Assembly: GCA_030044455.1 (NCBI GenBank)
Contig: JASHVU010000294.1
Location: forward strand, 1-22,578
DNA: 22,578 nucleotides
Direction: 5' to 3'
Source: Acidobacteriaceae bacterium
GTDB lineage: Bacteria; Acidobacteriota; Terriglobia; Terriglobales; Acidobacteriaceae
Part shown: one piece after another, positions 3,935-21,206 of the stretch
Layout: every line of letters begins with the position of its first letter
How positions within the stretch are numbered: the stretch's first letter is position 1
Program-made: the position numbers and the translations under genes
The notes under the pieces: model-generated
What the model was told of the DNA's origin: nothing
Databases searched by the model: none
What the model saw: only the letters and a program-made list of their open reading frames with translations

Positions 3935-3962
3935 GATTCCGATTCCTTTCTCTCGCCGGGTA

Positions 3963-4475
3963 TTAGTTCTGCGTTGGAAAAATTCCCTGGAGCGCAATGC
4001 AAAAGTTGAGCGTAAGGCAAGGCGCGATGTTAGTGTGCGCCTGCCCGCCGCCCGTTGAAGACACGCTGGCTGCGTTCATCGCCACGCCGGGGCTGGGGCC
4101 ATAGGGCTCATCTACGGATGCCGCCCAGCTATTGTTTGCCGGGGCAGCCAGGTTGGCTGTGTTCGATACCGCTGACGCCTGATGCGTGTGCGCTGGAATT
4201 TCCGCGGTCGTAAGCGTCACGCTGTCCACGCCGCCTGTCTGGCCGATGTCGTAAGAGTTGCCCGCCGAATCAGTTCCCTTGTGGACTGCCATGCGCCCCT
4301 GGAGGTTCGGCAGCTGAAAGTTCGTTGTTCCGTTTCCGCCGTAATAGGTTCCAATCAGCGCAAACAGGGCCTGATTCTGATTGATCGGCAGCAACTGTCC
4401 GTTGCAGAGCGCCCACCCTTTGGGCGCAAAATTGAAACTGAAAATCCGGACTTCGGATAAATATGGTGTACCCAT
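3963..4475 (-). CDS. Tail-collar domain protein 2 (microcystin-dependent type)
   Basis: This 170-residue paralogue of its neighbours has a strong Shine-Dalgarno (AAGGAGAGG, about 5 nt upstream of ATG 4475). The collar signature is complete: SEVRIFSFNFAPKGWALCNG near residues 7-26, NQNQALFALIGTYYGGNG, and FQLPNLQGR. TAEIPAHTHQ is followed by an Ala/Asn-rich variable part, then GGGQAHTNIAPCLTLNFCIA and IFPTQN at the end. The three collar proteins share both ends closely and differ in the middle between EIPAHTH and the last third, which is where tail-tip proteins usually vary in ligand contact. There is no export signal, so secretion, if any, would need a dedicated machine. It is the second gene of the operon, 32 nt after the first. 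Confidence 0.86.
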   Translation of the reverse strand: MGTPYLSEVRIFSFNFAPKGWALCNGQLLPINQNQALFALIGTYYGGNGTTNFQLPNLQGRMAVHKGTDSAGNSYDIGQTGGVDSVTLTTAEIPAHTHQASAVSNTANLAAPANNSWAASVDEPYGPSPGVAMNAASVSSTGGGQAHTNIAPCLTLNFCIALQGIFPTQN

Positions 4476-4507
4476 TTGTCCTCTCCTTTCGGACTCCTGC
4501 CTGCTCG

Positions 4508-5020
4508 CTAGTTCTGGGTCGGAAATATGCCAAACAGCGAAATGATGTAGTTGATAGCGAGGAACGGCGACATGTTGTTATGCGGCTGACTTCCGCCGGT
4601 CTGGCCCAGCGTGGCGCCCATCGACCCCGTTGGGGTTAAAGTCGAAAACTGCTCCAGCGCCGATTCAGCCCACACCGCGCCCGACGGACTCGTCTCGGTG
4701 CCGGCAGACGCTGCGGCCTCCAAAGAATGGGTATGCAACGGAATTTGGCTGGTCGTCAGCGTCTCGGACTCTGTCCCCGTCGCGAATCCGAGTCGGTACG
4801 AATTCCCATCCGGATCCGTCCCCTGGTGGACGGGAAAGCGGCTTTGCAGGTTGGGGAGGCCAAACGTGTTAACGCCATCGCCTCCATAGGTTGTGCCAAT
4901 CAACTGGAATAGCGTCGAGTTCTGTGAGATCGAAAGCAATTGCCCGTCGCAAAACGCCCAGCCGACCGGCGTAAAGTTGAACCCCACCATCCGAATCTCG
5001 CCCACGTACGGTTCCGCCAT
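4508..5020 (-). CDS. Tail-collar domain protein 1 (microcystin-dependent type)
   Basis: This 170-residue first gene of the minus-strand operon has AAAGGAG about 8 nt before ATG 5020. The N-terminal collar motif reads GEIRMVGFNFTPVGWAFCDG, followed by LLSISQNSTLFQLIGTTYGGDG and FGLPNLQSR. The centre has TSQIPLHTHSLEA, and the C-terminus has GGSQPHNNMSPFLAINYIIS and IFPTQN. It differs from the other two by Asp for Asn in CDGQLL and in YGGDG. Three such genes in a row plus a DUF6916 gene is a cassette I recognise from many environmental bacteria; its function has not been settled to my knowledge. The promoter is expected in the region just to the right. Confidence 0.86.
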   Translation of the reverse strand: MAEPYVGEIRMVGFNFTPVGWAFCDGQLLSISQNSTLFQLIGTTYGGDGVNTFGLPNLQSRFPVHQGTDPDGNSYRLGFATGTESETLTTSQIPLHTHSLEAAASAGTETSPSGAVWAESALEQFSTLTPTGSMGATLGQTGGSQPHNNMSPFLAINYIISLFGIFPTQN

Positions 5021-5458: not shown

Positions 5459-5494
5459 ATGGTGAACGCTGAGCAGAGAATGTTGGTGCCATGA
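5459..5494 (+). promoter_or_regulatory. Possible 11-residue leader frame overlapping the glycosidase start
   Basis: An ATG at 5459 opens an 11-codon frame (MVNAEQRMLVP) whose TGA overlaps the glycosidase ATG at 5491 as ATGA, the usual geometry for translational coupling. The glycosidase itself has no good Shine-Dalgarno, which makes coupling attractive, but the leader lacks one too. The decamer TGAACGCTGA occurs at 5463 and again at 5492, so part of this arrangement may come from a small duplication. Confidence 0.25.
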
Positions 5495-8064
5495 ACGCTG
5501 ATCGAAGATCTCTTTTGAAGGTACTTCCTGTGGCCGCAAGCGCGGGAATCGCAATCGCGCGCGGCCAATCCGCTACCGCAGCCGATCGAACCGCGCAGCT
5601 CACCCTTGATCCTCTCGAAGAGGGAGTGAAACGACCGCTCGAGACCGTCACGCTGCATTTAACCGCCGGCGATGCAACCGGCAAGGTTCTCGTGGTTCAG
5701 GATGGGGCGGGACGGGAATACCTGCGCATGACGGCTAAGGCGGAGATGTCGTTCGTGGTCGGTGGAGCATTGGGCCGTCACACGGCCAGGCTCTTGGAGC
5801 CGGATGGCAGAACCGCCGCCGAAGTAGTCCTCAGCGTAGACTGCGCCACCGAAGTTCGCGACCAGGGCGGGGTCTTTCAGGGTCTGGTTGAGGCCGTTCT
5901 GTGCACCATGATGAGCTGGAGTCAGAATTGCCCCGTGTCTGCGATTGCTTACAACCACCGCGACTATCAGTTCTTCGCCAACTGGATCTTCGACCACACC
6001 CTGATTCTTAAAGGAATGAAGTACTACTGGCCAACGGTAAAAGATGCCATTGACTTTTTTGCGGCCACGCAGCGCGAAGACGGAATGATCTGGGAGAATT
6101 GCTACCCTGCCACACCCGAACCAAATTACTTTGACTGGAAGTTTCACTACGGCGGCTTCACCAGGAGAATCGGCGACGGCTTCTGGCAACTCCGCCGTGC
6201 ACCGGTTGAGAGCCATGTTGAGCAGTATTTCGTCGAGGGCCTGTACAGCACCTGGAAAGCCACCGGAGACCTCGACTGGATGAAGGCAAAGCTGGACAAT
6301 GCTGTGCGCGCGCTGCGACAGGTCACGCACAGCCCCTACCGATGGTCGCAAAAATACCAGCTCATGCATCGCGGCTTCACCATCGACACCTGGGACTACA
6401 CCAGTGACGATCAGCAACGTTTCGACCAGTGTGTATTTACGGTGTTTTTGGGAAAGAGCGAATTCGGCGTCTTCCACGGCGATAACACGAATCTTGTTGC
6501 GCAATGCCGCCATCTGGCTGAAATGCTGCGCCAGGCCGATCGCGCAGCCGAAGCTCCCGAGTTCGAGCAACTGGCCTTGGGAGTCGAGTCGCGACTGAAC
6601 GCGCTCAGCTGGAATGGTGAGTTCTATACTCACTGGATTGCCGAAAACCCTGACTACAAACCCGACATGGGTGTCGACATGTCGCGCCAGGTTTCGCTCT
6701 CCAACGCCTATGCGCTCAACCGCGGCATCGCGCACCAGAAGTGCGTGAACATTCTCAAGACGTACCAGCGCATTCGCTCTGAAATGCCCACGTCTTCGCC
6801 CGGTGAGTTCTATGGCATCTATCCGCCTTTTGAGAAAAACTTCACCCGTAACGACCCCGGCATGGTGTGGGAGTACTGCAACGGCGGCGTTTTGACCGTA
6901 GTTGGCGGAGAGCTTGCGCACGGCGCATTTGAGCATGGTTTCGAGGAGTACGGCGCCGATATTCTTCGCCGTCTCGGCAGCATCGCCGACCGTTATCGCG
7001 GTTATCTCCCAGTCACGCTTCGAGGCAAAGCCGTCCAGCCGCCGGCCCGCACCTTTCAGCCCGTGAATATTGGGGCCGCCTTCAACGCCACGCTTGGTCC
7101 CGGCTCTCAAAAGGCGCCGTCCTGGTCAGGCGATCCGCAGATTAACCTCGAAGGTATCCCAGCCGGCGAACAAACACTTCATGGAGTGCGCTTCACTTTG
7201 CCCGATACCGCGCCGAACGGCACTCCCAACTGCATTGTTATCTCGCGCCAGTCGCCCTTCAAGGACCGCGCCACGGTGCCGATCAACGCAAAAGCCGTCT
7301 CAATCTACCTGTTCAACACCAGCAACACTTCGAGCACTGCCGGCCAGTCGCTCACCTTTCATTACTCCGACGGCTCTGCGCAGACATTGGACGTAGAGGG
7401 ACACACGTGGTTCGAGCCCGCGGATACGCGCTACAGCAAAGACGGCCCGCGCACCCGCGACAAGTATCGCCTGGCCTGGACAAAGACTACCGAGGATCAG
7501 GTGGTGCTGGGGGCCTACGCCACCGGAGTCGCCAATCCGCATCCCGAGCGGCAGATCGCTTCACTCGAATTCGCTGCCGGCTCCGAACAATGCAAGTGGA
7601 TGATCGCCGCCGTCAGCCTGTGCGATGCGCCGGTCTTCTTTGCTCCTTATGACGATCTGTCGACGGGCATCCCCGACGGCTGGGCCGGCTCGGTTACACA
7701 GGCAGTGATTGAAGGCCTGGCCGGCATTAACGACGAAGGCGCGGCTTTCAGCAACACCGCCATCCGGCCGCGCTGGCCTGCGGCGCAAGTGGACAGGGCC
7801 GAGATCACCGCGCGCTACCCGGCTTCACAAGGCTATTGCAGCTATCGCTACAATGCAGCCGATAACGTGCTCAATCTCGAATTCACCGGAAGCGCACAGA
7901 ATTTTCGCGTGGAGATGCTCGTGCCTCGCGGCAAACAAGTGAAGAGCGCGCAACTGGACGGGATGACGGTTCGAGTTGAACTCAAAACCATTGAGGGGTC
8001 TCGATACGCGGTGGTGTCCCCGATCTCCAAGGGTGTTCACCGGCTCGAAATCGCGCTGGCATGA
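5491..8064 (+). CDS. Tat-exported six-hairpin glycoside hydrolase (unassigned specificity)
   Basis: This 857-residue protein begins with a twin-arginine signal (NADRRSLLKV, hydrophobic stretch to about residue 30). A beta-sandwich N-domain (to about 120) is followed by an alpha-helical region (about 130-510) rich in Trp, Tyr and acidic residues, as in the (alpha/alpha)6 barrel of GH78/GH63/GH65-like enzymes. Candidate active-site loops with carboxylates are DGMIWENC (197-204), DTWDYTSDD (299-307) and GMVWEYCNGG (457-466). A galactose-binding-like beta domain (about 560-700) and a small C-terminal beta domain (about 770-857), the cap usually seen after such barrels, complete it. The likely substrate is a plant or microbial polysaccharide side chain, perhaps rhamnose- or fucose-containing, given the adjacent fucosidase; the exact GH family cannot be given from the sequence alone. 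It probably works in the periplasm or outside. It is 172 nt upstream of, and codirectional with, the GH29 gene. Confidence 0.75.
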   Translation: MNADRRSLLKVLPVAASAGIAIARGQSATAADRTAQLTLDPLEEGVKRPLETVTLHLTAGDATGKVLVVQDGAGREYLRMTAKAEMSFVVGGALGRHTARLLEPDGRTAAEVVLSVDCATEVRDQGGVFQGLVEAVLCTMMSWSQNCPVSAIAYNHRDYQFFANWIFDHTLILKGMKYYWPTVKDAIDFFAATQREDGMIWENCYPATPEPNYFDWKFHYGGFTRRIGDGFWQLRRAPVESHVEQYFVEGLYSTWKATGDLDWMKAKLDNAVRALRQVTHSPYRWSQKYQLMHRGFTIDTWDYTSDDQQRFDQCVFTVFLGKSEFGVFHGDNTNLVAQCRHLAEMLRQADRAAEAPEFEQLALGVESRLNALSWNGEFYTHWIAENPDYKPDMGVDMSRQVSLSNAYALNRGIAHQKCVNILKTYQRIRSEMPTSSPGEFYGIYPPFEKNFTRNDPGMVWEYCNGGVLTVVGGELAHGAFEHGFEEYGADILRRLGSIADRYRGYLPVTLRGKAVQPPARTFQPVNIGAAFNATLGPGSQKAPSWSGDPQINLEGIPAGEQTLHGVRFTLPDTAPNGTPNCIVISRQSPFKDRATVPINAKAVSIYLFNTSNTSSTAGQSLTFHYSDGSAQTLDVEGHTWFEPADTRYSKDGPRTRDKYRLAWTKTTEDQVVLGAYATGVANPHPERQIASLEFAAGSEQCKWMIAAVSLCDAPVFFAPYDDLSTGIPDGWAGSVTQAVIEGLAGINDEGAAFSNTAIRPRWPAAQVDRAEITARYPASQGYCSYRYNAADNVLNLEFTGSAQNFRVEMLVPRGKQVKSAQLDGMTVRVELKTIEGSRYAVVSPISKGVHRLEIALA

Positions 8065-8236
8065 GCGGGATTCGGAATACCCAAGTAGCTGCGCCGGCCG
8101 CATCGGTCGCCTCAATACTAACGCGAACGTGCTTAATCAGCAGGGTGCGATCGGGATGATGGAGATTCTGAGCGCGGTGATGTGAAAGAATAGCTCCGCA
8201 TTTTAACCTCAACCAGTTTTTGACAGGAGTTTTCGC

Positions 8237-9781
8237 ATGAATGTTTCCCGGCGCACTGCCTTGGGATGGATCGGCGCCGGATCAGCGGCAGCTTTGACGC
8301 AGGTGGCAAGCCTCTGCCAGCCGGCATCCCCGCGCGCGACCGGGCCGTATGAGCCGCAATGGGATTCGCTGCAGCAACATGAATGCCCCGATTGGTTTCG
8401 GGATGCCAAGTTCGGAATCTACTTTCATTGGGGGCTCTATTCAGTTCCCGCATTTGGAAGTGAATGGTATCCGCACTGGATGTATCTGCCCGGGCGGCCG
8501 GAATACGATCACCACATTGCAACCTACGGTCCACTGGATAAGTTCGGATACAAGGACTTTGCGCGCCAGTTCACCGCGGAGCATTTCGATGCAGATGCCT
8601 GGGTGACTCTGTTCAGAGAGTCAGGCGCTCGCTACGTCGGCCCAGTAGCCGAGCATGCCGATGGTTTCTCAATGTGGGCAAGTGAAATCAACCGCTGGAA
8701 CGCGAACCGAATGGGCCCACGTCGCGACATTGTGGGTGAAATGGAGCAAGCGGTTCGGAAGCAGGGGCTCAAGTTCTATGCCAGCTTCCATCACCAATGG
8801 CTGTGGGGCTGGTATTCGAGTCCGCTGGCTGCCGCTGACATCTACAACCCCCGGTTTGCCGACCTCTACTGGCCACAGGAATACGCGTGGGGCAGTCGGC
8901 CGCCCAGGGATTATTCACAGGACGTACCCGGCGCTTTCAACTACGCGCATCCCGATCCGCCGCCGTCGGAAAAATTCTGTGAGATGTGGTGCAACAAGGT
9001 CATTGAAGTGATTGACCGTTACCATCCCGACGTTCTTTACTTCGACAGTCGCACCTTCATCATTCCTGAAAAATACAGGATGAAGATGCTGGCGCATTAC
9101 TACAACACCAGCCATCTTGCCGGGCGCGAAGTCGCGATGACGTACAAGGCGAATGATTTTGCCCGGGGCTCGGGGCTTCTCGACTTTGAGGCCGGACAGT
9201 TGGCCGAAAAAGCAAGCTTTGTTTGGCAGACCGACGATAAGATGGACTGGGATTCGTGGGCCTACCTGAAAACGCCAAACTACAAGTCCGCCGGCCGTAT
9301 CCTGCACCAATTGATTGACATCGTTTCAAAGAACGGAAACCTGCTGCTTGATGTGGGACCTCGACCGGACGGAACCATTCCGGAACAGGTGGTCAGCCGG
9401 CTTCGGGCAATCGGCGCGTGGCTCAATATAAACGGAGAGGCAATATATGCAACCAGGTCCTGGGAACGCTTTGGCGAGGGGCCAACGCGCGTGAAAGAAG
9501 GCATGAATGTGGCCGATCACAACACCGACTTCACTGCGCAGGACTTGCGTTTCACAACCACTGGCAATTCGTTGTATGTTCAAGTGCTGGGTGACCCCGG
9601 AACTCAGCTGCTGGTTAAGTCCATCAGGCGTGACACGCCTTTGCCATTCGGCTTGTTGAAAAAAGCGCAGATGCTGGGCCGTGCGGAATCACTCGAATGG
9701 GATTGGTCGACAGACGGTCTGGTCATACAACTGCCCGATCAAAAGCCATCGGAAGACGCGATTGTGATCCGTCTAAGTTAG
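8237..9781 (+). CDS. Tat-exported GH29 alpha-L-fucosidase
   Basis: This 514-residue enzyme has AGGAG about 8 nt before ATG 8237. Residues 1-28 resemble a Tat signal (NVSRRTALGWIGAG). The catalytic (beta/alpha)8 domain shows GH29 landmarks: WFRDAKFGIYFHWGLYSVPA (53-72), EHADGFSMW (139-147), where many members have HHDGF, FYASFHHQW (180-188), and HPDVLYFDSRTF (263-274), where Asp270 is the expected nucleophile, in place of the usual W-F-D-G. GNLLLDVGPRPDGTIP (367-382) is the family's C-terminal barrel motif. A beta-sandwich occupies about 405-514. It releases terminal L-fucose from glycans with retention of configuration. The acid/base residue cannot be assigned by eye. It likely acts with the upstream six-hairpin enzyme on the same exported substrate. 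Its end is 42 nt from the convergent MMPL gene. Confidence 0.9.
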   Translation: MNVSRRTALGWIGAGSAAALTQVASLCQPASPRATGPYEPQWDSLQQHECPDWFRDAKFGIYFHWGLYSVPAFGSEWYPHWMYLPGRPEYDHHIATYGPLDKFGYKDFARQFTAEHFDADAWVTLFRESGARYVGPVAEHADGFSMWASEINRWNANRMGPRRDIVGEMEQAVRKQGLKFYASFHHQWLWGWYSSPLAAADIYNPRFADLYWPQEYAWGSRPPRDYSQDVPGAFNYAHPDPPPSEKFCEMWCNKVIEVIDRYHPDVLYFDSRTFIIPEKYRMKMLAHYYNTSHLAGREVAMTYKANDFARGSGLLDFEAGQLAEKASFVWQTDDKMDWDSWAYLKTPNYKSAGRILHQLIDIVSKNGNLLLDVGPRPDGTIPEQVVSRLRAIGAWLNINGEAIYATRSWERFGEGPTRVKEGMNVADHNTDFTAQDLRFTTTGNSLYVQVLGDPGTQLLVKSIRRDTPLPFGLLKKAQMLGRAESLEWDWSTDGLVIQLPDQKPSEDAIVIRLS

Positions 9782-9823: not shown

Positions 9824-12061
9824 TCAATTGTGGTTGGCCATCACTGACGAGTTACGTGCCGTGGCAAGCCCTCCAGGCCACCAGTTCCAATCACCGGCAA
9901 TGCGAAGCAGAGCTGGACCGATCACAATTCGAACCAGTGTCGCGTCAATTAAAACTGCGATCGCCAGAGTAAATCCGATCATCTTGACCACCAGGAAATC
10001 TCCAAAGGTGAATGCCGCGAACACCACGATCATGATTGCGGCAGCGCTGGTAATCAGGCCCGCAGTCCGAGCCAGTCCCTCGGGGATTGCGTCCACTTCA
10101 CTCAATCCGCTTCTACGCGCTTCAAGAACGCGCGCCACCAGAAACACTTCGTAATCCATGCTCAGCCCGAAGACGATGGCAAAGGCGACAATTGGCACTA
10201 AAGGAAACACACTCCCCGTTCCTCCGGGAACTCCCAGCAATGCGCTTCCGTGTCCGTCCTGGAATACCAGAACCAATGCTCCGAATGAGGCGGCAACGGA
10301 GAGTAGGTTCAGTGCGATGGCCTTCACGGCTGCGAAGAGTGATCGAAATCCGCCCAATAGCGCCACCAGCGTCCCCACCACCACGAGTGACATCGCGGGC
10401 ACAAAGCGATCAGCGACAATCGTCTGATAATCGGCATTCAGCGCCGGAATGCCGCCAATCAGTAGCGTAGCGCCGGGCACTCCGGTAAGCGCTGTCGCAC
10501 CGGTCTTCCTGAGTTCCCTCACCCAATTAACTTGTCCGCGCAGCGACACTGAAGTCGCCGGTAACACCTCAATCAGCGCGGCCCGTCCGTCGCTGCTCAA
10601 AAACGTTCGGCGAGTCTCACGCGTAAGGTCGCCCAGTGCAGACCGGTTGCCCGCTGCAATCGTCGTAATTGAAATTACGCGGTCGCAACGCGGGTCGCTC
10701 GTGAGCCGCTTTGAGAGACGATCGATTGCATCCCACCCCGTGTCGCTTTGCGAGATCGAATCCACCGGCAGTTCGACAAGGACGCGCAGCGATTCAACAA
10801 CACCGTTCCGGCCCATTTTTCCCAGGGCGTTCAGTGCATGCACCGATTCCGCCGCCTGGGGAAGCCAATTCCCGCGCGGGAGACTGGTATCGAGCCGGGC
10901 GGCCTGCCAGGCGAGCAGAAGCAAGGGGGCACTTGCCAGAAACAGGGCCAGCCAGGGGTGGGCAACAATGACCGTTCCCCATCGTCTCCATCGAATCCCC
11001 GTGCGTTCTGCCCAGTGCGCATCCAGTCGCGGCTTAAATGGCAGCCGGCCCGCATCGATTCTGTGACCGATCAGCGCCAGCACCGCCGGAACGAGTGTAT
11101 TTGCCAGCAGCACGCACATGCCCGCAACCAGAATTCCAGCCACACCGATGGAACGAATCTCGCTGATGGGAACCGTCAGGAGCGCGAGAAATCCGATGGC
11201 CACCGTGGAGGCCGAAATCAGCAGCGTGTGTCCTGCGTGGCGCGCCGCGACCAGCGAGGCCACACGCCCGTCGCATCCGGTGCAGAGCGCCTCCCTGAAA
11301 CGGCTTACCATCAGCAGCGCGTAGTCGATCCCCAGGCCCAACCCCAGCATGGTCGCCAGATTCTGCACCAGAATGGACAAATGAAAGCGCGATGCCAGGA
11401 CGCCGGTGATGGCCAAGGTGGCTGCGATGGCGAGTTCGCCGACCGCCAAAGGAATCAGTGCTGCGATCACGCTCCCGAACGCAAGCAGCAACAGCGCGAG
11501 GGTTGCGGGAATTGCCAGACTCTCACTGTGTTGCACCTGGTCGGCGCTTGCCTTGCGAATGTCGAAATTCAGCGGAATCTCGCCCGTCAGTTCGAGCTTT
11601 ACACCGGGATAACGGCTCCGCAATTGAGTTTCAAGAGAGTTTGCCCGCTCGTGAAGCTCAGGAACAAGCGATTCCACCGGCCCGTCGGTCGACGCCAGCC
11701 CGATCAGAACAAACGTTCCGCCGCCTTTGCCCAGGAAAACCGGATCGCGCAAGTCGAGGTAGGAAACGATTCCCGAAACGCCCGGCGAGTCTTTTAGTCC
11801 CGCCTCGATGGTGGCTAACGCCTGCTCGCCCTGGTCGGAATCTGCTGCCGGCAATCCCTCGACTACCAGCGCCACCCGGTTGACAAATGGCGAATGAAAA
11901 CGGCTGCTCAGCTCCTGGCTGACTGCTTCCGCTTCACTCCCTTCCACGTGGGTTGCCGTCTCCAGATGGCGCTCGGCGTGGAAAGAGAATGGCAGAAGCG
12001 CCAACACGGCGATAAGGACCAACCCGGCCACCCAGAAACGGCGCACACGCATGAGATTCAT
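9824..12061 (-). CDS. MMPL-family RND lipid exporter
   Basis: Starting at ATG 12061 this protein has 745 residues; a TTG at 12118 would add 19, and neither has a strong Shine-Dalgarno. The MNLMRVRRFWVAGLVLIAVLA N-terminus is a typical basic-then-hydrophobic first helix. Topology is the MMPL one: helix, periplasmic domain (about 30-180), five helices, a second helix plus periplasmic domain (about 365-545), then five helices. The two paired Asp-Tyr motifs that carry protons in MmpL3-type pumps are present: GLGIDYALLM (Asp245/Tyr246) and GLSMDYEVFL (Asp636/Tyr637). MMPL proteins export lipids, lipid-linked metabolites or hopanoids. It lies on the same strand as the FAAL gene, with one opposite-strand gene between them, so export of the lipid made by that locus is a reasonable guess. 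No membrane-fusion or outer-membrane partner is nearby. Confidence 0.87.
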   Translation of the reverse strand: MNLMRVRRFWVAGLVLIAVLALLPFSFHAERHLETATHVEGSEAEAVSQELSSRFHSPFVNRVALVVEGLPAADSDQGEQALATIEAGLKDSPGVSGIVSYLDLRDPVFLGKGGGTFVLIGLASTDGPVESLVPELHERANSLETQLRSRYPGVKLELTGEIPLNFDIRKASADQVQHSESLAIPATLALLLLAFGSVIAALIPLAVGELAIAATLAITGVLASRFHLSILVQNLATMLGLGLGIDYALLMVSRFREALCTGCDGRVASLVAARHAGHTLLISASTVAIGFLALLTVPISEIRSIGVAGILVAGMCVLLANTLVPAVLALIGHRIDAGRLPFKPRLDAHWAERTGIRWRRWGTVIVAHPWLALFLASAPLLLLAWQAARLDTSLPRGNWLPQAAESVHALNALGKMGRNGVVESLRVLVELPVDSISQSDTGWDAIDRLSKRLTSDPRCDRVISITTIAAGNRSALGDLTRETRRTFLSSDGRAALIEVLPATSVSLRGQVNWVRELRKTGATALTGVPGATLLIGGIPALNADYQTIVADRFVPAMSLVVVGTLVALLGGFRSLFAAVKAIALNLLSVAASFGALVLVFQDGHGSALLGVPGGTGSVFPLVPIVAFAIVFGLSMDYEVFLVARVLEARRSGLSEVDAIPEGLARTAGLITSAAAIMIVVFAAFTFGDFLVVKMIGFTLAIAVLIDATLVRIVIGPALLRIAGDWNWWPGGLATARNSSVMANHN

Positions 12062-12176
12062 GATTTCAGACGAGATCGCCAACCATTCAGTTATAGTCGA
12101 TTTCTTTGACGGGACCAAAGTGAATCACTCGCCCATATAGCCGTCAGGCACGCAAACAGTTCGTATAGTAGTAAGG

Positions 12177-13034
12177 ATGCACCTCCGGAGCTCCCAGCTA
12201 TTCGGCCAATGTGCTTTGCCGGGATTTGTGGCTCGCGCCGGTTCAGGAGGACTTATTCGTAGATTCGTCATGCTCACGTTGCTTTTCGCCGTTCCAGTGT
12301 GGGCGGCTGACCCCCGCATCGGCTCCTGGAAGCTGGTCTCGGCGCAGTGCACCCTTGACCCCGCAAACAAACTTTCCATCACCGATCTTCATGACACGGT
12401 GCACGTGGTCATGTCTGGAGATAAGCGTTTGGATTTCACGGCGGGCGGTAACGGGCACGAAACCTCTGTTCCCGGCAACCCGGCATTCGATCAGGTCGAG
12501 TTGCACAGAATCGACAAGAGACACGCCGAGGTGAAGGAGAAGAAGGACGGAGCTGTGGTCGCAACGGTTCGTGAACAACTTTCGGCTAATGGCGACCAGC
12601 TGACAATCACCACTGCCAGCGCCGGCCATGACGACCAAATCAATGTGTGGATACGAAGCGGCGGCGCAAAGATTGCCCGCGATCTCTTCGCCGGCGAATG
12701 GACTGAGGATCTAAGCAAGACTCGTATGCGGCAAGAGTTGCCGCTCAGGATCGAGGCGAACGGAAACGATGGGGTCCGTTTTTCAGGCGACTTCAGCTAC
12801 ACAGCCCGCTTCGACGGCAAACAATACGACCTGAGGAACTCCCGCAACGACACCGTGACGCTTCAACTTGTCGACCCGCACACGGTGGATTCGATTTACC
12901 GGCGTGACGACCAAGTGACGCAAAAGGACAGGTGGGTGGTTTCCCCTGATGGCCAGCAGATGACGCTGACCACCACCGGCACGTTCGAAACCGGCCAGCA
13001 TTTAACCGAGAAACTGGTCTTCAAAAAGCAGTAG
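12177..13034 (+). CDS. Exported hypothetical protein
   Basis: From ATG 12177 this reads 285 residues; the first 26 look like non-coding sequence. The real signal peptide is RRFVMLTLLFAVPVWA followed by Ala-Asp-Pro. ATG 12270 would cut off the basic residues of that signal. A strong AGGAGG at 12245-12250 points instead to an in-frame ATT at 12255, giving 259 residues, so the start is unsettled. The mature part has two beta-rich segments that resemble each other: each starts near a G-x-W motif (IGSWKLVSAQCTLDP and FAGEWTEDLSKT) and ends in long beta-strand runs closing with Thr/Gly-rich sequence (DQLTITTASAG and QQMTLTTTGTF). This suggests a duplicated lipocalin- or YceI-like barrel, perhaps binding a lipid. 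I do not recognise the family. It is convergent with the FAAL gene, stopping 17 nt from its end, and divergent from the MMPL gene, which fits a lipid-locus role but does not prove it. Confidence 0.65.
   Translation: MHLRSSQLFGQCALPGFVARAGSGGLIRRFVMLTLLFAVPVWAADPRIGSWKLVSAQCTLDPANKLSITDLHDTVHVVMSGDKRLDFTAGGNGHETSVPGNPAFDQVELHRIDKRHAEVKEKKDGAVVATVREQLSANGDQLTITTASAGHDDQINVWIRSGGAKIARDLFAGEWTEDLSKTRMRQELPLRIEANGNDGVRFSGDFSYTARFDGKQYDLRNSRNDTVTLQLVDPHTVDSIYRRDDQVTQKDRWVVSPDGQQMTLTTTGTFETGQHLTEKLVFKKQ
12245..12250 (+). promoter_or_regulatory. Strong Shine-Dalgarno without a canonical start at normal distance
   Basis: AGGAGG lies 4 nt before an in-frame ATT (12255) and 19 nt before the next ATG (12270). 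It suggests that the exported protein here starts at ATT, which would produce an ideal short signal peptide. The spacing is a little short, so the call stays tentative. Confidence 0.4.
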
Positions 13035-13051
13035 AGAATTGTGCATCCGCT

Positions 13052-16000
13052 TTACGCGTCCGACCAGGCCAATCGGCCGCTGGCCGCCGGGGCCGGCGTT
13101 ACCGCCTGCGTAACTTTGGCCTCCCGGGCCTCGACTGAAATGATGCCCTTGCGGTGCATGAATTTCAATATGCCGTTGACCGTATCTTCGAGCGATGGAT
13201 CGGCCTTGCCCCACTCTGAGGCATCTCGCGCTTTTTGATACGTGGAACTGTCGTAGCGTTTGAACTCCATCGCCGTGATGTTGTCCACTGAGCCCACCAG
13301 AAAATCCAGCAGCGGAAAGAGAAGATCTTCCTTCCGGCATCTGCGGATCAGTTCGGGAACAAAATCTGCGACGCTGAAAATCTCGAATTGCCGCCCCGTC
13401 GCCTTGGTGATGAGCCCGGTAATATCCATCATGTTCGCGTAGTCGTCGCGCACAACATGATAATTCTTATTCTCAGTTCCGGGAGTGGTAGAGATGGCGA
13501 CAATGTTATTTGCCGCAATGTCGGCGGGTACAAAACTCACCTGGTTTAATGCGTCCACCCCAATGCCGTGATTCACCATGAACGCAACCAGGCGAACTGC
13601 GATATCAAAGTTATTGCCTCCTCCCATAACCGAAGGGCTCACCAGTGCGGGCCGGAAGATCCTGACTGAAAGGCCCTTGTTGCGCGCGTCATCCACAACC
13701 TGTTCAGCCACCCACTTTGACTGGCTGTATCCGAAGTCGAGCAATTCCATGTCCTGGTTCTGGTCGGTCTCATAAAGAACACTCTTGACGGCCCAGCCAA
13801 AAACGAATGTCGTCGAAACATAATTCAGGCTCTTGGGCCGTCCTTCGAAGGCCAGTCTCAACACCTCGTTGGTTCCCAGCACGTTGGCTTCCCGCATGCG
13901 GTCGTAATTGAATAGATAGTTCACGGTCGCGCCGTTGTGGAAAACTGTGTCCATCTCATTGGCGAGGAAGCCCCAGACATCCTGCGTCAGGCCCAGATTT
14001 TGCTGCCCGAGATCACCGCAAATCGGAATGACGCGAGCCTCAAACATCTGCATCAGTCCGGCGGGGCAAGACCCCATCGATTCCATCGCCGCTCTCAATC
14101 TTTGCTTGCCCTGCGCTTCGTCCGATGCCCGCACCAGAACATAGATCTTCGCCCGCGTCTGTTCCAGAAGACTTTTTATCAGGAATGGCCCGATGAAACC
14201 CGTGCCGCCCGTCAGCAGCACATGATTCAGAACTGGTATCGCCGGCACGGGCGCAGGCGCCGTAGGCGCGAAGATGAGCTTCCTGTCGCTGTTCATCAAC
14301 TGCTTTTCCGCTTCGCGCTGCTCTTCACGGAATACCGCCAGAGAATGACGCAGTAATGTCAGCGCCTCTTCGGGAGCACGCTCCAAATGCTCGGCCAATT
14401 GGAACAGCTCGGCTACGCTCACCCGCTGAATCACGCCGATATCTACTTGCCTGGCCAGAATATCGGCGCCTTTATCCTTCAAAAGCTCCTTCAGCTCATG
14501 CATGAACACCACCAGGTCCAGCGAATCAAGGCCTGCTTCGACCAGGTTGTACGATTCCTGGCCGGTCAGGTTATACCTGGCCTTCAGCACGTCGAATGAA
14601 GTCCGAATTTCACAACAGGGCTCCGCGGTTCCGGCGTCTTTCTCTCGCGAAAACTCAGAGAGAACATTGAACTCGCCAGCCAGCCACATTTGCTTGGCCT
14701 TGTGACGCATGATCTTGCCCGAACTGGTTCTCGGAATCGCACGAGGCGCGATAAACGAAATCAAGGCGGTTTCGACGTTGAGATAATTCCGGACTGCGGA
14801 AGCAATCTTGCGCGCATCCGGAAGCACCTTTGGATTTTTCGCTTCGGCCACGATCGCCAGCGCCGGCTCGCTGTCTTCGTGAATCTGGAATGCGGCAACG
14901 CAATTGCCGCGGATCAGCCCCGACGCCCGCTCTACAACGTTCTCAATATCCTGCGGGTAATAGTTTTGTCCGCGCAGAATAATCATGTCCTTGATACGAC
15001 CGCAAACGTACAGCTCGCCGTCGTGGAAGAAGCCCATGTCGCCAGTGCGCAGGTAGCCATCGTCGTACGGGCTGTCGTCTACCAGCCGCGCGCGAAACTG
15101 CTTCTGCGTCATCTCCGGGTTCTTCCAGTAGCCCAGGCACTTGCCATATCCGGCCACCCAGATTTCGCCGATAAGACCGTCCTTGAGAGCGACGTGCCGC
15201 TCCGGGTCGGCGATCTTCACGTCGAGACCGGGGAGCGGAGTTCCGCAACTGACAATCTGCGTGGACGCGTCAATCTCCGAGACCTCGGTCGTCATGCGCG
15301 CCTTGCCCAGCGCCAGGGCACGCTTGTTCACGGAAACAATATTGCGGCCACCCAGCGAAACCGCCAGCGTGTTTTCAGCCAGCCCGTAGGCGGCATAAAA
15401 GCTCTCTGACCTGAGTCCGTAGGGCTGAAACGCCTCAAGAAACCGCGTATAGGTATCGGGTTTTACTGGCTCCGCCGCCACCATCAGTACCTCAAGCGAA
15501 CTCAGGTCGCAGTCCTCCAGGCTCTCCTTTGAAAGCCTTCCGGCGCGCAGGCAATAGTCAAAAGCGAAGTTGGGTGCAGCCGTCGCGGTAGCCCGGTAGG
15601 TCTTGATTGCGTCAAACCACAGCGCCGGCCGCTGAATGAAATCCATTGATGCGAATCCGTAGGTCGTTCCGCCTTTCAGCGCGGGATAAAGGTAGCACCC
15701 GATCAGCCCCATATCGTGATATTGCGGAAGCCAGGAAACCACGACCGGCTCGGGATGATCGATCACCAGCGGGTAGGTGTCCAGAATGTTTTCGTGCGTC
15801 ACAATCACACCCTTGGGCTCCATCGTCGACCCCGAGGTGTACTGGAGAAACAATATCTTCGAAGTTTCAAAAACGGGTTCGTCCGGGATCGTATCCACAA
15901 AGTCTTCCGTGACAATCCAGGGTAGATTCGAGATGTAATCAACATCTACGCCGGATGTCGAGATTCCACTTCGAGCAAGATTTGTTTTCAAAGATGCGCG

Positions 16001-16366
16001 GTAATCGCTGCTGGTTAAGATTCCAGCCGCCTGGCAATCTTTTGCGATGTGGACCATCTTGTACAGGGCGCTCTGGAAGCCCCGGGAACCTGGAGGATAA
16101 ACAGGCACCGGGATCAATCCGGCGCGGACGCATCCAAAAAACGCGCAGATCATCTCCAGGCCCGGCGGGTAGGCGAGCAATAGCCGATCTCCGGACGCGA
16201 ATCCATGTTCTATTCGCAACCGGCCTGCGATCGCCTTCGTCCTCTGGATAAACGACGCGTAGGAGTAGCACTCGATTGGATTTCCGTTCAGGTCAAGGTA
16301 CGCGTAGAGGAGTTTGTTTGGGTGCTCATCCTCGAGCCTATCCAGTTGGTCCAATATCGACGCCAT
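13052..16366 (-). CDS. Three-module FAAL - acyl carrier - thioester reductase
   Basis: This 1104-residue protein starts at the first in-frame ATG after a TGA; no clear Shine-Dalgarno is visible. Module 1 (1-570) is a fatty acyl-AMP ligase: YTSGSTMEPKG (176-186), SWLPQYHDMGLIG (211-223, a FAAL hallmark), YAAYGLAEN (325-333), GYLRTGDMGF (437-446), GRIKDMIILRGQNYYPQDIE (456-475) and PRTSSGKIMR with Lys551. Module 2 (about 585-665) is a carrier domain with the phosphopantetheine serine in AGLDSLD (Ser615). Module 3 (about 713-1075) is a thioester-reductase short-chain dehydrogenase: TGGTGFIG (719-726), NYVSTTF (848-854) and YSQSK (Tyr880, Lys884). It should activate a free fatty acid with ATP, load it on its own carrier and release it with NAD(P)H as an aldehyde, or an alcohol after a second reduction. 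The neighbours (divergent desaturase and P450) suggest the chain is modified while bound. It needs a phosphopantetheinyl transferase not present here. Confidence 0.93.
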   Translation of the reverse strand: MASILDQLDRLEDEHPNKLLYAYLDLNGNPIECYSYASFIQRTKAIAGRLRIEHGFASGDRLLLAYPPGLEMICAFFGCVRAGLIPVPVYPPGSRGFQSALYKMVHIAKDCQAAGILTSSDYRASLKTNLARSGISTSGVDVDYISNLPWIVTEDFVDTIPDEPVFETSKILFLQYTSGSTMEPKGVIVTHENILDTYPLVIDHPEPVVVSWLPQYHDMGLIGCYLYPALKGGTTYGFASMDFIQRPALWFDAIKTYRATATAAPNFAFDYCLRAGRLSKESLEDCDLSSLEVLMVAAEPVKPDTYTRFLEAFQPYGLRSESFYAAYGLAENTLAVSLGGRNIVSVNKRALALGKARMTTEVSEIDASTQIVSCGTPLPGLDVKIADPERHVALKDGLIGEIWVAGYGKCLGYWKNPEMTQKQFRARLVDDSPYDDGYLRTGDMGFFHDGELYVCGRIKDMIILRGQNYYPQDIENVVERASGLIRGNCVAAFQIHEDSEPALAIVAEAKNPKVLPDARKIASAVRNYLNVETALISFIAPRAIPRTSSGKIMRHKAKQMWLAGEFNVLSEFSREKDAGTAEPCCEIRTSFDVLKARYNLTGQESYNLVEAGLDSLDLVVFMHELKELLKDKGADILARQVDIGVIQRVSVAELFQLAEHLERAPEEALTLLRHSLAVFREEQREAEKQLMNSDRKLIFAPTAPAPVPAIPVLNHVLLTGGTGFIGPFLIKSLLEQTRAKIYVLVRASDEAQGKQRLRAAMESMGSCPAGLMQMFEARVIPICGDLGQQNLGLTQDVWGFLANEMDTVFHNGATVNYLFNYDRMREANVLGTNEVLRLAFEGRPKSLNYVSTTFVFGWAVKSVLYETDQNQDMELLDFGYSQSKWVAEQVVDDARNKGLSVRIFRPALVSPSVMGGGNNFDIAVRLVAFMVNHGIGVDALNQVSFVPADIAANNIVAISTTPGTENKNYHVVRDDYANMMDITGLITKATGRQFEIFSVADFVPELIRRCRKEDLLFPLLDFLVGSVDNITAMEFKRYDSSTYQKARDASEWGKADPSLEDTVNGILKFMHRKGIISVEAREAKVTQAVTPAPAASGRLAWSDA

Positions 16367-16802
16367 ATTCGATCAGGAATACCCTTCAAAGTGAATTGGG
16401 AGAACTCAGTGCGTGGGAAACACCTACACATTTGCTGCTGCGCGCGCAACCTTGCGGCGAAGTACCACTGGGTCTCGGCGCGCTGGATGCCAGTGTAGGA
16501 CGACATTGAGAACAAAGGTAATAACTTTACTTTGCTCAAGTGCCGCTCGGTCCGGTCCGGGCAAATCTCTTGTAACGGCCGGGCTCAGACGGCGGGGAAG
16601 TCTTCCAGAGACTGCCGGGCCCCAATTGCCCATTCAACGTATTGTCATACAGTCTGTCCGTTCATGGTAGCAGAGCCGGGAGGGATTGCGTCCCATCTTC
16701 TCGGCTAAAACGTCGCCCGGCGCGGTTTCATCCTACTCGAATTTCCTTGATTCTCCATGAACCTTCGCGCTAAGATTCAACCTTCGGAGCTGTCGGAGAC
16801 GT
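16367..16802. promoter_or_regulatory. Shared divergent regulatory region of the lipid locus
   Basis: This 436-nt gap lies between the divergent FAAL and desaturase starts, so it should hold both promoters and any common regulator site. I see an A+T-rich patch near 16513-16540 with AAAG...CTTT half-sites and a small perfect-arm hairpin GGAAG-T-CTTCC near 16597. A TTGTCA near 16643 lacks a good -10 at the right distance. No gene or RNA structure was identified. Confidence 0.4.
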
Positions 16803-18029
16803 GTGATTAAAAAGCCCTGCTCCCCTTGGGCAGCCCATCCCGCTGCCCGGGGCATGCCCGATCGGCGTAACATGATAGTGGAGGCGCTGGTGACATCCGG
16901 GACCGAAGCGGCTATCTCTTTAAGGCCGGATGTAGACGACCTCGTTCCCTGCGAGCCTTCGCCGGCACAGTCCATAGGCGACCCTGCTGGCGTAGCTTCC
17001 TTCCCCAAAGTCCTGCGCCGCCGCCTCGAATATTTCTTCACCGACCAGAAGATCTCCCCCAAAGCCGACGGATCGATGTGGCTCAAGGTTGCCGTGGGCC
17101 TTGCAGCGCTGCTGGGCAGCTGGATTGCTATCTACATCCTCAGGCCCGATTCCTGGAGGTTTGTCGCCCTCTACCTTCTCGGCGGCATCGCCCAAACATT
17201 CCTCTTGCTCAATATCGCCCATGACAGCAACCACAACGCCATCTCAACCGTGCCATCGGTCAACAAGCTCCTGAATTACGTCTTCGATGTTTGCGGAATC
17301 AGCTCATACATGTGGCGCATTCTCCATCATCGCGGCCACCATTCCTGCATCAATCTCCAGGGCGAAGACGATGCGCTTACTGGACGAGGAATCTTTCGCT
17401 TTACGCCCCATGAACCGCGCACCCGTATGCACCGCTTCCAGCACATCTATGCGCTGTTCTTCTACGCCCTCTTCTCTCTCGACTACGTTTTCCTCAGGGA
17501 CTTCGAAGCCTTCTTCTTTCCGACCCACGACTATTTGAAACGCACCACGCATCCGCCGCGGGAGTACGCCATCTTATTTGCGGGCAAGGGTCTATACCTC
17601 ACTTACATGCTCATTTTGCCGGTGGTCTGGCTGGGCAAACCGATTCTCCTGGTCCTCTTGTCGTTTGTGCTGGTGCATCTCATTATCGGATTGACCGTAT
17701 CGCTGGTTTTTCAGACAACGCACACTGTCGACAGCACTTACTTCCCTTCGGACCGCGGCGAGTTTGACAATGGCGTGTACCACATCTTCGCCACCACGGC
17801 CGATTATGCAACGGAAAAACCGCTCGTGGCCTGGCTCACCGGCGGGCTCAACCACCACATCGCTCATCATCTGTGCCCTTATGTGTGCCACACTCACTAC
17901 GCTCCGCTGACCCGGATTGTGAAGCAGACCGCCGAAGAGTTTGGGGTCCCCTATCGGCAACATCCCACGATGAGACGGGCAATCGTCCATCATCTGATAC
18001 TTTTGAAGCAACTGGGAAACGAAGACTGA
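16803..18029 (+). CDS. Membrane fatty-acid desaturase (diiron)
   Basis: This 408-residue protein is given from GTG 16803, which has GGAG 4 nt upstream; ATG 16854 or 16872 would shorten it by 17 or 23 residues of unremarkable sequence. All three histidine boxes of membrane desaturases/hydroxylases are present: HDSNH (140-144), HHRGHH (175-180) and HHIAHH (351-356), binding two irons. A supporting QTTHTVD lies at 304-310. Hydrophobic segments at about 94-112, 119-138, 214-232, 256-275 and 279-302 fit the usual four to six membrane spans. It inserts a double bond (or hydroxylates or acetylenates) into a fatty acyl chain using O2 and an electron donor not encoded here. Given the divergent FAAL-carrier protein, an acyl-carrier-bound substrate is plausible, as for the JamB and TamT desaturases; this is inference. 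The P450 gene follows 118 nt later. Confidence 0.9.
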   Translation: MIKKPCSPWAAHPAARGMPDRRNMIVEALVTSGTEAAISLRPDVDDLVPCEPSPAQSIGDPAGVASFPKVLRRRLEYFFTDQKISPKADGSMWLKVAVGLAALLGSWIAIYILRPDSWRFVALYLLGGIAQTFLLLNIAHDSNHNAISTVPSVNKLLNYVFDVCGISSYMWRILHHRGHHSCINLQGEDDALTGRGIFRFTPHEPRTRMHRFQHIYALFFYALFSLDYVFLRDFEAFFFPTHDYLKRTTHPPREYAILFAGKGLYLTYMLILPVVWLGKPILLVLLSFVLVHLIIGLTVSLVFQTTHTVDSTYFPSDRGEFDNGVYHIFATTADYATEKPLVAWLTGGLNHHIAHHLCPYVCHTHYAPLTRIVKQTAEEFGVPYRQHPTMRRAIVHHLILLKQLGNED

Positions 18030-18136
18030 CGCAGAGTGCTCGACACAATTCCCGGACTATTCATTTTTTGGGGACTATTTAACCGCTTCAGGCAGACCGC
18101 ATGAGATTCTCCACCGTTCAAAGTAAGTATCCGGGT

Positions 18137-18142
18137 GAGGTG
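18137..18142 (+). promoter_or_regulatory. Shine-Dalgarno that fixes the P450 TTG start
   Basis: GAGGTG lies 5 nt before TTG 18148. The protein from this codon begins with the Pro-rich leader and the Y-G-D-x-F-K-F block expected at the start of the P450 fold, so the TTG is probably the true start. Confidence 0.55.
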
Positions 18143-18147
18143 TAACT

Positions 18148-19524
18148 TTGCCCACGCCAATACCCGTTGTTTCCCGAATTCGTTCCTTTGCTGACTCGCC
18201 CGCAATGGTCAGTAATCCCGTCGAGGTTTTGACAAAGTACACCGAACTCTACGGCGACACATTCAAGTTCTATATAGGTGGACTTAAAGAAGCCATCGTT
18301 ACCACCAATCCCGACGTGATTCAGCACGTGCTAAAGACCAACTGGGAGAACTACCAGAAATCTGAAATCCAGGTAAAACGCATGGGCCACTTCCTGGGTA
18401 AAGGCCTTCTCACCACTCACGGTGAAGCCTGGCGCACACAGCGCCGCCTGATCCAGAAGGGTTTCGATCGCAAGCAGCTTGAGGCTCTGTCTTCCATCAT
18501 GCAGGACTCGCTCGCCGAGTCGCTGAAGGGTTTTGAAAGAGAAGTCCGCGCCGGCTCCGTCGACATTTACCCCCACCTGATGAAAATGACCTTCTCGATG
18601 GTCGCGCGATCGTTGTTTGGCGCCAAGTTGAAGGATGAAGACATCGACTTGGTAAGCCACACCATCTGCACCGTCCAGGAGTTCATCGTTCGGCAGACCC
18701 TTCAGCCATACATGAATCCCTGGTTCGGCGTTTCCGGCGACTTGCGCAAGCACGAGCAGATGCGCGAGCGGGCCGACAGTATCCTCATGTCCTACATCAA
18801 GCAGCGCCGCCACCAGGAGCCCGGCAACGACCTGCTGCAGACATTGATGGACGCCCGTTACAGCGACGGCCACGGAATGACCGATGAGCTGGTGCTGAGC
18901 GAGAGCATGCAACTGCTGGTCGCCGGTCATGAAACGTCGTCGAACGCTCTATCGTGGATGTTCTACCTCTTAAGCACACGTCCCGATTGTCTCGAAAGAG
19001 TGCGGCAGGAGTTCGACTCCGTCATTGGCGGTGCGCCATTGAGTTATACCGACGTTCCCCGGTTTGAATTCACCTCCCAGGTCATTCAGGAAGCGCTCCG
19101 CCTCTACCCGCCGTTCTGGATGATCGACCGCATGGCGGTTGCGGACGACGTTGCCGGCCACGTGGCCATACCCAGCGGATCGACGGTGATCGTGTTCGTC
19201 TACGGCGCGCACCATGCGCCAAAGTACTGGCCGAACCCTGAGCTCTTCGACCCCGAGCGTTTCACCAAAGAGAACGAAAAGCTGCAACCGCCCTTCACCT
19301 ATCTGCCCTTCGGCGGCGGACCGCGAGGCTGCATCGGCGGCAACTACGCGATGCTGCAAATCCTCATGATCCTCAGCATTCTGCTCCGAAAATACGATTT
19401 TCAACTCGCTCCCGGCCAGCAAATCGAAGCGCGCCCCATGGTCATCCTTCGCCCCAGACACGGAATCCGCATGACCTTCACCGAGGCAATCGCACGCGAC
19501 CATCACGCAGTCCTTCAAGAATAA
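18148..19524 (+). CDS. Cytochrome P450
   Basis: This 458-residue heme monooxygenase starts at TTG 18148, supported by GAGGTG 5 nt upstream; there is no ATG at a fitting position. Signatures are complete: WRTQRR in helix C (95-100), oxygen-binding AGHETSS in helix I (259-265), EALR (Glu315-Arg318), FDPERF (367-372) and the heme loop FGGGPRGCIGG (388-398) with thiolate Cys395. The overall shape is the CYP4/CYP102-like class that favours fatty-acid substrates; no fused reductase and no signal or anchor helix are seen, so it needs a separate ferredoxin system. Placed after the desaturase on the same strand, it most likely hydroxylates or epoxidises the lipid chain, or could act on the aldehyde; the site is unknown. 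It is followed by a long gap, so it probably ends the operon. Confidence 0.93.
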   Translation: MPTPIPVVSRIRSFADSPAMVSNPVEVLTKYTELYGDTFKFYIGGLKEAIVTTNPDVIQHVLKTNWENYQKSEIQVKRMGHFLGKGLLTTHGEAWRTQRRLIQKGFDRKQLEALSSIMQDSLAESLKGFEREVRAGSVDIYPHLMKMTFSMVARSLFGAKLKDEDIDLVSHTICTVQEFIVRQTLQPYMNPWFGVSGDLRKHEQMRERADSILMSYIKQRRHQEPGNDLLQTLMDARYSDGHGMTDELVLSESMQLLVAGHETSSNALSWMFYLLSTRPDCLERVRQEFDSVIGGAPLSYTDVPRFEFTSQVIQEALRLYPPFWMIDRMAVADDVAGHVAIPSGSTVIVFVYGAHHAPKYWPNPELFDPERFTKENEKLQPPFTYLPFGGGPRGCIGGNYAMLQILMILSILLRKYDFQLAPGQQIEARPMVILRPRHGIRMTFTEAIARDHHAVLQE

Positions 19525-19925: not shown

Positions 19926-21206
19926 ATGAAACGTACAAGCGCATCCGTTCTGATGCTCGCTTCAATAGTTAGCGCCTGCGCAATCTCCGCGTACGGCCAA
20001 GCCACAGTCCCAACTCAGGTAACCATCCCGCCATCCAGCGTTGTCCATCCTGAAGACACCGGCCTGCGGGTTCACACCAATCTCAAAATCATGGGCCCTG
20101 GGCCGATGACCAGCGCGCCCCAGACCTCTGGACCGCCGTTCCCCGGGTATCTGTACGAAACTCCAGCGTCGCTCGCGTGCATCTACCATCTTGTATGGGC
20201 TTCGCAAGGTTGCAATCCGAACCTTGTCACCGCGAATCCAAACGGGGGTAGCCGGGCCATCGCCGTGGTGGATGCATATGACGACCCCAACGCCTTTGCC
20301 GACCTGCAGGCATTCTCCGCGCAGTTTGGAGTCCGGGCGCCCACCCCAACCAGTTTTCAAGTGGTGTACGCGCCCTCGGGCGGAGCCACGCCGGGTTCTT
20401 GCACCGGGCCCGCGACGCAACCCCCGAACGCTGCGATTTTCGGCTGGGACGTGGAAGAGTCGGTGGACGTTCAATATGCCCATGCTATGGCGCCCAGGGC
20501 TTCTCTTTACCTGGTTGAAGCGCAGTCCAATTACGACACTGATCTCGATTGCGCGGTGACCGTGGCCAGCAATCTGGTGGCAAGTGCGGGCGGTGGAGAA
20601 GTTTCCATGAGCTGGGGTGGTACCGAGTTCCCTGAAGAAACGGCCTCCGACCCCATTTTTACGACCCACGGCGTGGTCTATCTTGCCGCGACCGGCGACG
20701 ATCCGGGGGTCATCTATCCCAGCGCTTCGCCCAACGTAGTTGCCGTGGGAGGCACCTCCCTTAGCACCAACTTCAACACCGGAAACTTTGAGTTTGAAAA
20801 CTCCTGGCAGGATGCAGGGGGAGGCACCAGCGTCTTTGAGTCAAGGCCGAGTTACCAGGATCGTATCGCTCGCCTTGTGGGCACGCAACGTGGCGTTCCA
20901 GATATCGCGGCCGACGCCAATCCATACACAGGCGTTTGGGTTGCGGACTCTCTGGTGTTCGGCCCAGGAACGTGGTATATCGTCGGCGGCACCAGCTTAG
21001 CCGCGCCCACCGTGGCCGGGATCGTCAATGCAGCCGGCAGTTTTACTCCCTCCAGCGCAGCCGAACTCAACCTGGTCTATCGGACCGCGTTTGGGTTTAA
21101 TGACATTACAGTCGGAAACTGCGGTCCGTATATGGGGAGTTGGGCCACATCAGGTTGGGACTTCTGCACCGGGGTTGGCAGCCCCGACACCTACTTTGGT
21201 AAATAA
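19926..21206 (+). CDS. Secreted sedolisin (S53) peptidase with a short leader
   Basis: This 426-residue protein has AAAGGAAA about 7 nt upstream of its ATG. Residues 1-25 are a Sec signal (MKRTSASVLM start, cleavage near AYG-QA). The S53 catalytic set is visible: Glu177 and Asp181 in WDVEESVDVQYAHAMAP, Asp258 of the oxyanion site in ATGDDPG, and Ser357 in GGTSLAAP. The C-terminal calcium site is also present (FNDITVGNCG, then SGWDFCTGVGSP). AVVDAYDDPNAFADLQAFSAQFG (112-134) is the usual first strand and helix. Sedolisins are acid-active serine-carboxyl peptidases that normally carry a propeptide of about 150-200 residues. Here YETPASLACIYHL, the usual start of the mature enzyme, already comes at about residue 77, so only about 50 residues lie before it. 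It may fold without the standard propeptide. It likely digests protein outside the cell in acid soil. Confidence 0.87.
   Translation: MKRTSASVLMLASIVSACAISAYGQATVPTQVTIPPSSVVHPEDTGLRVHTNLKIMGPGPMTSAPQTSGPPFPGYLYETPASLACIYHLVWASQGCNPNLVTANPNGGSRAIAVVDAYDDPNAFADLQAFSAQFGVRAPTPTSFQVVYAPSGGATPGSCTGPATQPPNAAIFGWDVEESVDVQYAHAMAPRASLYLVEAQSNYDTDLDCAVTVASNLVASAGGGEVSMSWGGTEFPEETASDPIFTTHGVVYLAATGDDPGVIYPSASPNVVAVGGTSLSTNFNTGNFEFENSWQDAGGGTSVFESRPSYQDRIARLVGTQRGVPDIAADANPYTGVWVADSLVFGPGTWYIVGGTSLAAPTVAGIVNAAGSFTPSSAAELNLVYRTAFGFNDITVGNCGPYMGSWATSGWDFCTGVGSPDTYFGK

Follow-up and report, generated by a model that had tools for sequence, protein, structure and literature searches.

Mycobacterial FAAL/MmpL lipid loci combine a FAAL, an MmpL transporter and exported lipid-binding lipoprotein carriers, and they extend the chain with polyketide synthases. 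Carboxylic acid reductases (CARs) hold adenylation, phosphopantetheine and reductase domains in a single chain and make aldehydes from carboxylic acids, including fatty acids; the enzyme of Mycobacterium marinum accepts C2-C18 fatty acids, and the source account presents CARs as lone enzymes, without a cassette (PMC5396282). As outlined in PMC9594044, tambjamine biosynthesis relies on two proteins, TamA (ligase-ACP) and TamH (transaminase-reductase): a fatty acid is activated, attached to a carrier fused with the ligase and then freed as an aldehyde, which is transaminated, and the TamH reductase domain is likened to acyl-ACP reductases. The JamABC alkyne locus and the polyyne loci have a FAAL, a carrier and a membrane desaturase as separate proteins, some actinobacterial polyyne loci also having a P450; polyyne loci have three desaturases, a thioesterase and a rubredoxin, and the part of PMC8406139 that deals with these loci names no reductase. 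Finally, Myxococcus ElbD joins an N-terminal FAR-like domain with ligase, carrier and acyltransferase domains; this multidomain protein serves ether lipids, and the elb operon as described is without a desaturase-P450-MMPL set (PMC9131029).

The locus analysed here lies in a stretch of 22,578 nucleotides from an Acidobacteriaceae bacterium (hereafter the window) and resembles each of these systems in part. Like CARs, it has activation, carrier and thioester reductase in one chain; as in the tambjamine system, the activated fatty acid would pass to a carrier in the same chain as its ligase and leave as an aldehyde; it shares FAAL, carrier and desaturase with the alkyne and polyyne loci, and ligase, carrier and reductase domains with ElbD. 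With the mycobacterial loci it has in common a FAAL, an MMPL transporter and an exported, putatively lipid-binding protein. Unlike the tambjamine system it has no transaminase among its five genes, and unlike the mycobacterial loci no polyketide synthase module was seen. The absence of PKS and NRPS modules had been predicted and holds among the window proteins scanned. The adenylation domain of CARs is not a FAAL, and identification of the window protein as a CAR was rejected with NCBIfam model NF041592 (137.1 bits against an equivalog cut-off of 1300). Nor do the five genes make up a polyyne biosynthetic locus as characterised in PMC8406139 (three desaturases, thioesterase, rubredoxin). The original prediction had assumed that known analogues use separate proteins; CARs are a single-chain precedent (PMC5396282), and as they share the activation-carrier-reductase plan, we consider its novelty to have been overstated. 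For the combination of the FAAL protein with desaturase, P450, MMPL and FABP-like genes, we found no description in the papers retrieved from an open-licence library.

The FAAL-carrier-reductase protein

The protein has 1104 aa (13052-16366, minus strand). Its AMP-binding domain (residues 23-414) is followed by a DIP2-like C-terminal AMP domain (460-568), then by a carrier region in which the motif GLDSLD holds Ser615, and by an NAD_binding_4 domain (718-955). The match of the carrier region to PF00550 (PP-binding) is below the Pfam cut-off (E 0.019, 15.7 bits against 20.8), and the thioester reductase model TIGR01746 is passed with 245.2 bits (cut-off 213.35). Eight catalytic columns were checked in the 73 of 81 sequences that are full length. 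Glu331, Asp443 and Lys551 of the A-domain, Ser615 of the carrier, and Thr853, Tyr880 and Lys884 of the reductase are invariant in all 73; the remaining reductase column, Thr852, holds Thr in 70 and Ser in three. With seven of eight columns identical throughout, chance is, on the evidence of these alignments, ruled out as an explanation of the domain make-up. The predicted fusion of FAAL, probable carrier and reductase in one protein is confirmed by the open reading frame, the TIGR01746 match and the conserved catalytic residues.

Matches to solved structures place the adenylation domain nearer FAALs than CoA ligases: 7r7f and 3kxw score 337.7 and 330.5 bits and FadD23/FadD32 structures about 231-250 bits, while the first CoA synthetase, malonyl-CoA synthetase 4fuq, reaches 86 bits. 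FAAL models also lead among the NCBIfam matches, each below its own cut-off. In Terracidiphilus gabretensis the corresponding frame (L130:10001-13432) has 1154 residues, and the interruption of its matches near residue 166 suggests an in-frame insertion.

A conserved unit of five genes

Divergently from the FAAL gene, as predicted, run the genes of a desaturase and a P450, both well above their Pfam cut-offs. The membrane diiron fatty acid desaturase (PF00487, 98.8 bits, cut-off 29.7) was called at 16803-18029 on the plus strand (408 aa), but homologues suggest a start at GTG 16890 or ATG 16872, the shorter form spanning 16890-18029. This would move the start downstream, so that the shared divergent region (16367-16889 for the shorter form) would measure about 505-523 nt rather than the 436 nt first proposed. 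A block within it, GCTCTGCTAnCAT, is identical in 9/9 aligned loci; a simple scan of the region found no sigma-70-like promoter. The desaturase histidines H140, H144, H175, H179, H180, H355 and H356 are unchanged in 28/28 chosen sequences, and in a wider set of 60 the first two histidine boxes are broken in one acidobacterial row. The cytochrome P450 (18148-19524, plus strand, 458 aa, TTG start; PF00067, 299.3 bits, cut-off 22.8) has its heme Cys, ExxR and I-helix Thr identical in 55/55 aligned sequences. Neither query had a second match in the window's own genome, which is 76.5% complete.

The unit was originally thought to comprise three genes. The conserved unit is larger, with five genes at 9824-19524. 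One of the two additional genes encodes an MMPL/RND-family transporter on the minus strand (9824-12061; PF03176, 225.9 bits in two stretches, cut-off 20.5); its frame opens at TTG 12118, and comparison with homologues favours ATG 12061 as the start. The other, at 12270-13034 on the plus strand (start according to public gene calls; the frame opens at 12177), codes for a secreted protein of 254 aa with a predicted FABP-like beta barrel fold and putative lipid binding.

To assess linkage, we searched genome contigs with the FAAL protein alone as query and retained the best 80 of 163 relatives, 47 of which, at 76% FAAL identity or more, form the cassette group. According to record titles alone, these are Acidobacteria except for L092, titled Verrucomicrobia. 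The desaturase adjoins the FAAL gene divergently in 34/34 loci with at least 4 kb upstream. A scripted count found the P450 beside the desaturase in 33 of these 34; in the exception, L095, the neighbour comparison shows that the P450 is present and the desaturase hit is split in two. Among loci with at least 4.5 kb downstream, the MMPL gene is found in 34/34 and the FABP-like gene in 33/34 (absent from L052), both lying further from the FAAL gene in L061, L063, L081 and L083. Outside the five genes, no gene cluster occurs in more than 3 of the 54 compared loci. Comparing the distance matrices of the five proteins gave correlations of r 0.69-0.97, and in no comparison was the observed value reached by any of 999 permutations; part of this co-variation is owed to shared descent.

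Distribution and horizontal transfer

Searching 200 genomes of the same family, the window's own included, gave 31 matches to the FAAL protein at 1e-40. Of these, 14 reach at least 77% identity, G002 and G036 being fragments, and the remaining 17 are FAAL domains at 28-42%. At 1e-150, 396 genomes of the phylum gave 18 matches, 13 within the family (own included) and five in other families at 44-51%. Seven stretches were compared from these five other-family genomes: six, from four genomes, are without other cassette genes, and the seventh (G461), by length and match the same contig as L105, has a P450. In the window's genus the protein was present in two of the eight genomes listed, the six without it being 99-100% complete. 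Records titled as isolates also carry the cassette, namely Terracidiphilus gabretensis S55, Bryocella elongata DSM 22489 and several Edaphobacter and Granulicella.

We compared cassette proteins with a 606-residue stretch of GyrB in 17 cassette genomes, leaving out the two fragments and G348. GyrB identity is 69-81% between genera and 84-100% within them; for the FAAL protein the corresponding values are 74-90% and 79-99.5%. Identity of the cassette proteins tracks that of FAAL (r 0.73-0.88) better than that of GyrB (r 0.47-0.65). The conflict is sharpest for genome G510: with G340, of the same genus, it shares 100% GyrB identity (rounded) but 79% FAAL identity, and with G031, of another genus, 79% and 90%. 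All five of its cassette genes match those of G031 better (82-90%) than those of G340 (68-80%). These identities show, for this one case, that the cassette moved between acidobacterial genera, and transfer of further cassettes appears likely.

Cassette flanks mostly differ between loci. The exceptions are copies of one genome, the close strains L040/L090 and L055/L149, and the pair L060/L087, which has genes in common on both flanks at about 70-74% DNA identity and hence the same insertion site; a few other pairs have single genes or short matches in common. In G510, the one genome traced, about 32 kb separate a tRNA-Leu(CAA) from backbone that is common to G150 (89%) and G340 (94%), and the cassette occupies the far end of this stretch; in G150, about 5.3 kb of other DNA follow the same tRNA. 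Short elements flank the G510 cassette (L152:4213-4288 on the left and L152:14211-14349). The left one ends like a tRNA 3' end and has matches in 17/17 genomes searched; perhaps these candidate elements are recombination sites. In two loci (L149 and L150, from G502 and G414), by position and unlike in the other cassette genomes compared, the cassette is about 3 kb from gyrB.

Distant relatives in other lineages

In the other 33 of the best 80 loci, the three-domain protein is 44-57% identical to that of the window. Most of these loci are titled Bacteroidota; the rest are Gemmatimonadota, Planctomycetota, Verrucomicrobiota, Calditrichia and a further two Acidobacteriota (L105, L129). A P450 was found in 20/33, a desaturase in 20/33 and either in 28/33; in the DNA examined, 13 loci are without a P450, 13 without a desaturase and five without both (L097, L101, L113, L129, L131), several of these outgroup contigs being short. 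Desaturases were seen in Bacteroidota only. In 17 of the 20 P450-bearing loci, the P450 alignment begins 20-86 nt past the end of the FAAL alignment. All P450 and desaturase hits share their strand with the FAAL gene. The expectation that the three genes are conserved together in related genomes was tested and upheld; their divergence characterises the acidobacterial loci, and in the outgroup loci the genes found run mostly in one direction. MMPL and FABP-like genes were not found in these 33 loci.

Other neighbours recur. With one member of each cluster scanned for identity, they include a phosphopantetheinyl transferase and a second desaturase-family gene, each in 10 loci, and a sulfotransferase in nine; a further sulfotransferase, apart from the nine-locus cluster, occurs in L097. 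The sulfotransferase neighbours suggest that related pathways may end in a sulfated hydroxyl. The Saprospiraceae desaturase (L104) is 49% identical to that of the window. The Flavobacteria-type enzyme (L119), with a QxxHH third box, shares 41% with a Spirosoma acyl-CoA desaturase and 31% with the window desaturase; as they are nearer the generic enzyme, the Flavobacteriales desaturases were probably recruited separately. L105 and L115 have an SDR and an FMO-like gene ahead of the FAAL gene, and ten outgroup loci (L125:7415-8173 and nine relatives) encode near it a membrane protein of a family that matches nothing in Pfam.

Proposed pathway and alternatives

We think it rather probable that the five genes form a cassette for lipid biosynthesis and export. 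Judging from its domains and invariant residues, the FAAL domain would adenylate a free fatty acid and load it onto the carrier of its own chain. The conserved linkage suggests that the diiron desaturase adds a double bond and the P450 an oxygen, acting on the chain either on the carrier or once released. The thioester-reductase domain would free an aldehyde, or an alcohol if two reductions take place, and export of the lipid from the cell might fall to the MMPL transporter together with the secreted FABP-like protein. A secreted oxylipin-like signal, an antimicrobial or a surface lipid would fit as product. As for carrier activation, the window's own incomplete genome gave no PF01648-type match to a phosphopantetheinyl transferase; among 15 cassette genomes, nine have two or three PF01648 matches and six have one (open frames of 135-186 aa). 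With one match in six of 15 genomes and none in the own genome, a dedicated phosphopantetheinyl transferase does not generally accompany the cassette.

FAAL, carrier and desaturase are also the alkyne set, and the desaturase could act as an acetylenase on the carrier-bound chain, with oxygen added by the P450 and the reductase in place of the thioesterase, giving an alkyne- or polyyne-type chain. A P450 stands in for thioesterase and rubredoxin in 10 actinobacterial polyyne loci reported in PMC8406139, and the second desaturase-family gene of ten Flavobacteriales-type loci points the same way. However, the acidobacterial cassette has one desaturase against three in the polyyne set of that source, and its five genes include neither thioesterase nor rubredoxin, which makes such a chain distinctly improbable. 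Somewhat less so, though still unlikely, is a building block of the envelope or membrane, such as a fatty alcohol that goes into an ether lipid or wax, put in the outer membrane by the MMPL and FABP-like proteins rather than secreted. MMPL transporters move envelope lipids. Moreover, ElbD, needed for ether lipids, has its ligase and carrier domains in one chain with a FAR-like domain (PMC9131029). Nevertheless, the cassette's patchy occurrence (14/200 same-family genomes at 77% or more, 2/8 in the genus) is unlike that of a core membrane lipid, and no acyltransferase or alkyl-transfer enzyme is found among its genes.

The short distance between reductase and P450 in most P450-bearing outgroup loci (17/20) would suit action on the released aldehyde. 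Insect CYP4G enzymes remove the aldehyde carbon to yield a hydrocarbon, and the P450 might likewise strip it, with an alkene as end product. The P450 Cys, ExxR and I-helix Thr are, however, those of ordinary hydroxylases, the sulfotransferase neighbours of nine outgroup loci suit a hydroxyl product, and an exporter would not be expected for an alkene; we regard this outcome as very improbable.

Returning to the biosynthesis and export of a modified fatty aldehyde or alcohol, it is tempting to speculate more broadly, on a reading that we hold as possible but rather doubtful. The cassette and its relatives, which record titles place in Acidobacteriota, Bacteroidota, Gemmatimonadota, Planctomycetota and Verrucomicrobiota, might represent a horizontally travelling pathway whose products, oxidised and unsaturated fatty aldehydes or alcohols made by reductive release, would form a new class (bacterial oxylipins). 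Such products would be secreted in Acidobacteria, sulfated in some Bacteroidota, and would serve as signals or as weapons in soils and waters. If the proposed main pathway is right, acidobacteria pass among themselves the genes for making and secreting a fatty aldehyde or alcohol. The cassette is a compact testable unit, with five genes leading from an acid to a probably exported product in strains titled as isolates, and its presence or absence among close relatives makes metabolite comparison easy.

Neighbouring genes in the window

A secreted subtilase-family protein (19926-21206, plus strand; 22.9 bits, Pfam cut-off 21.8) adjoins the cassette and is not conserved with it. Three tandem open reading frames of 196, 170 and 170 aa (3407-5020, minus strand) resemble by eye phage-tail-collar or microcystin-dependent proteins. 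At 5491-9781 on the plus strand, a large secreted-looking protein of 857 aa without a Pfam family lies beside an alpha-L-fucosidase (514 aa), with which it perhaps forms a sugar-degradation pair.
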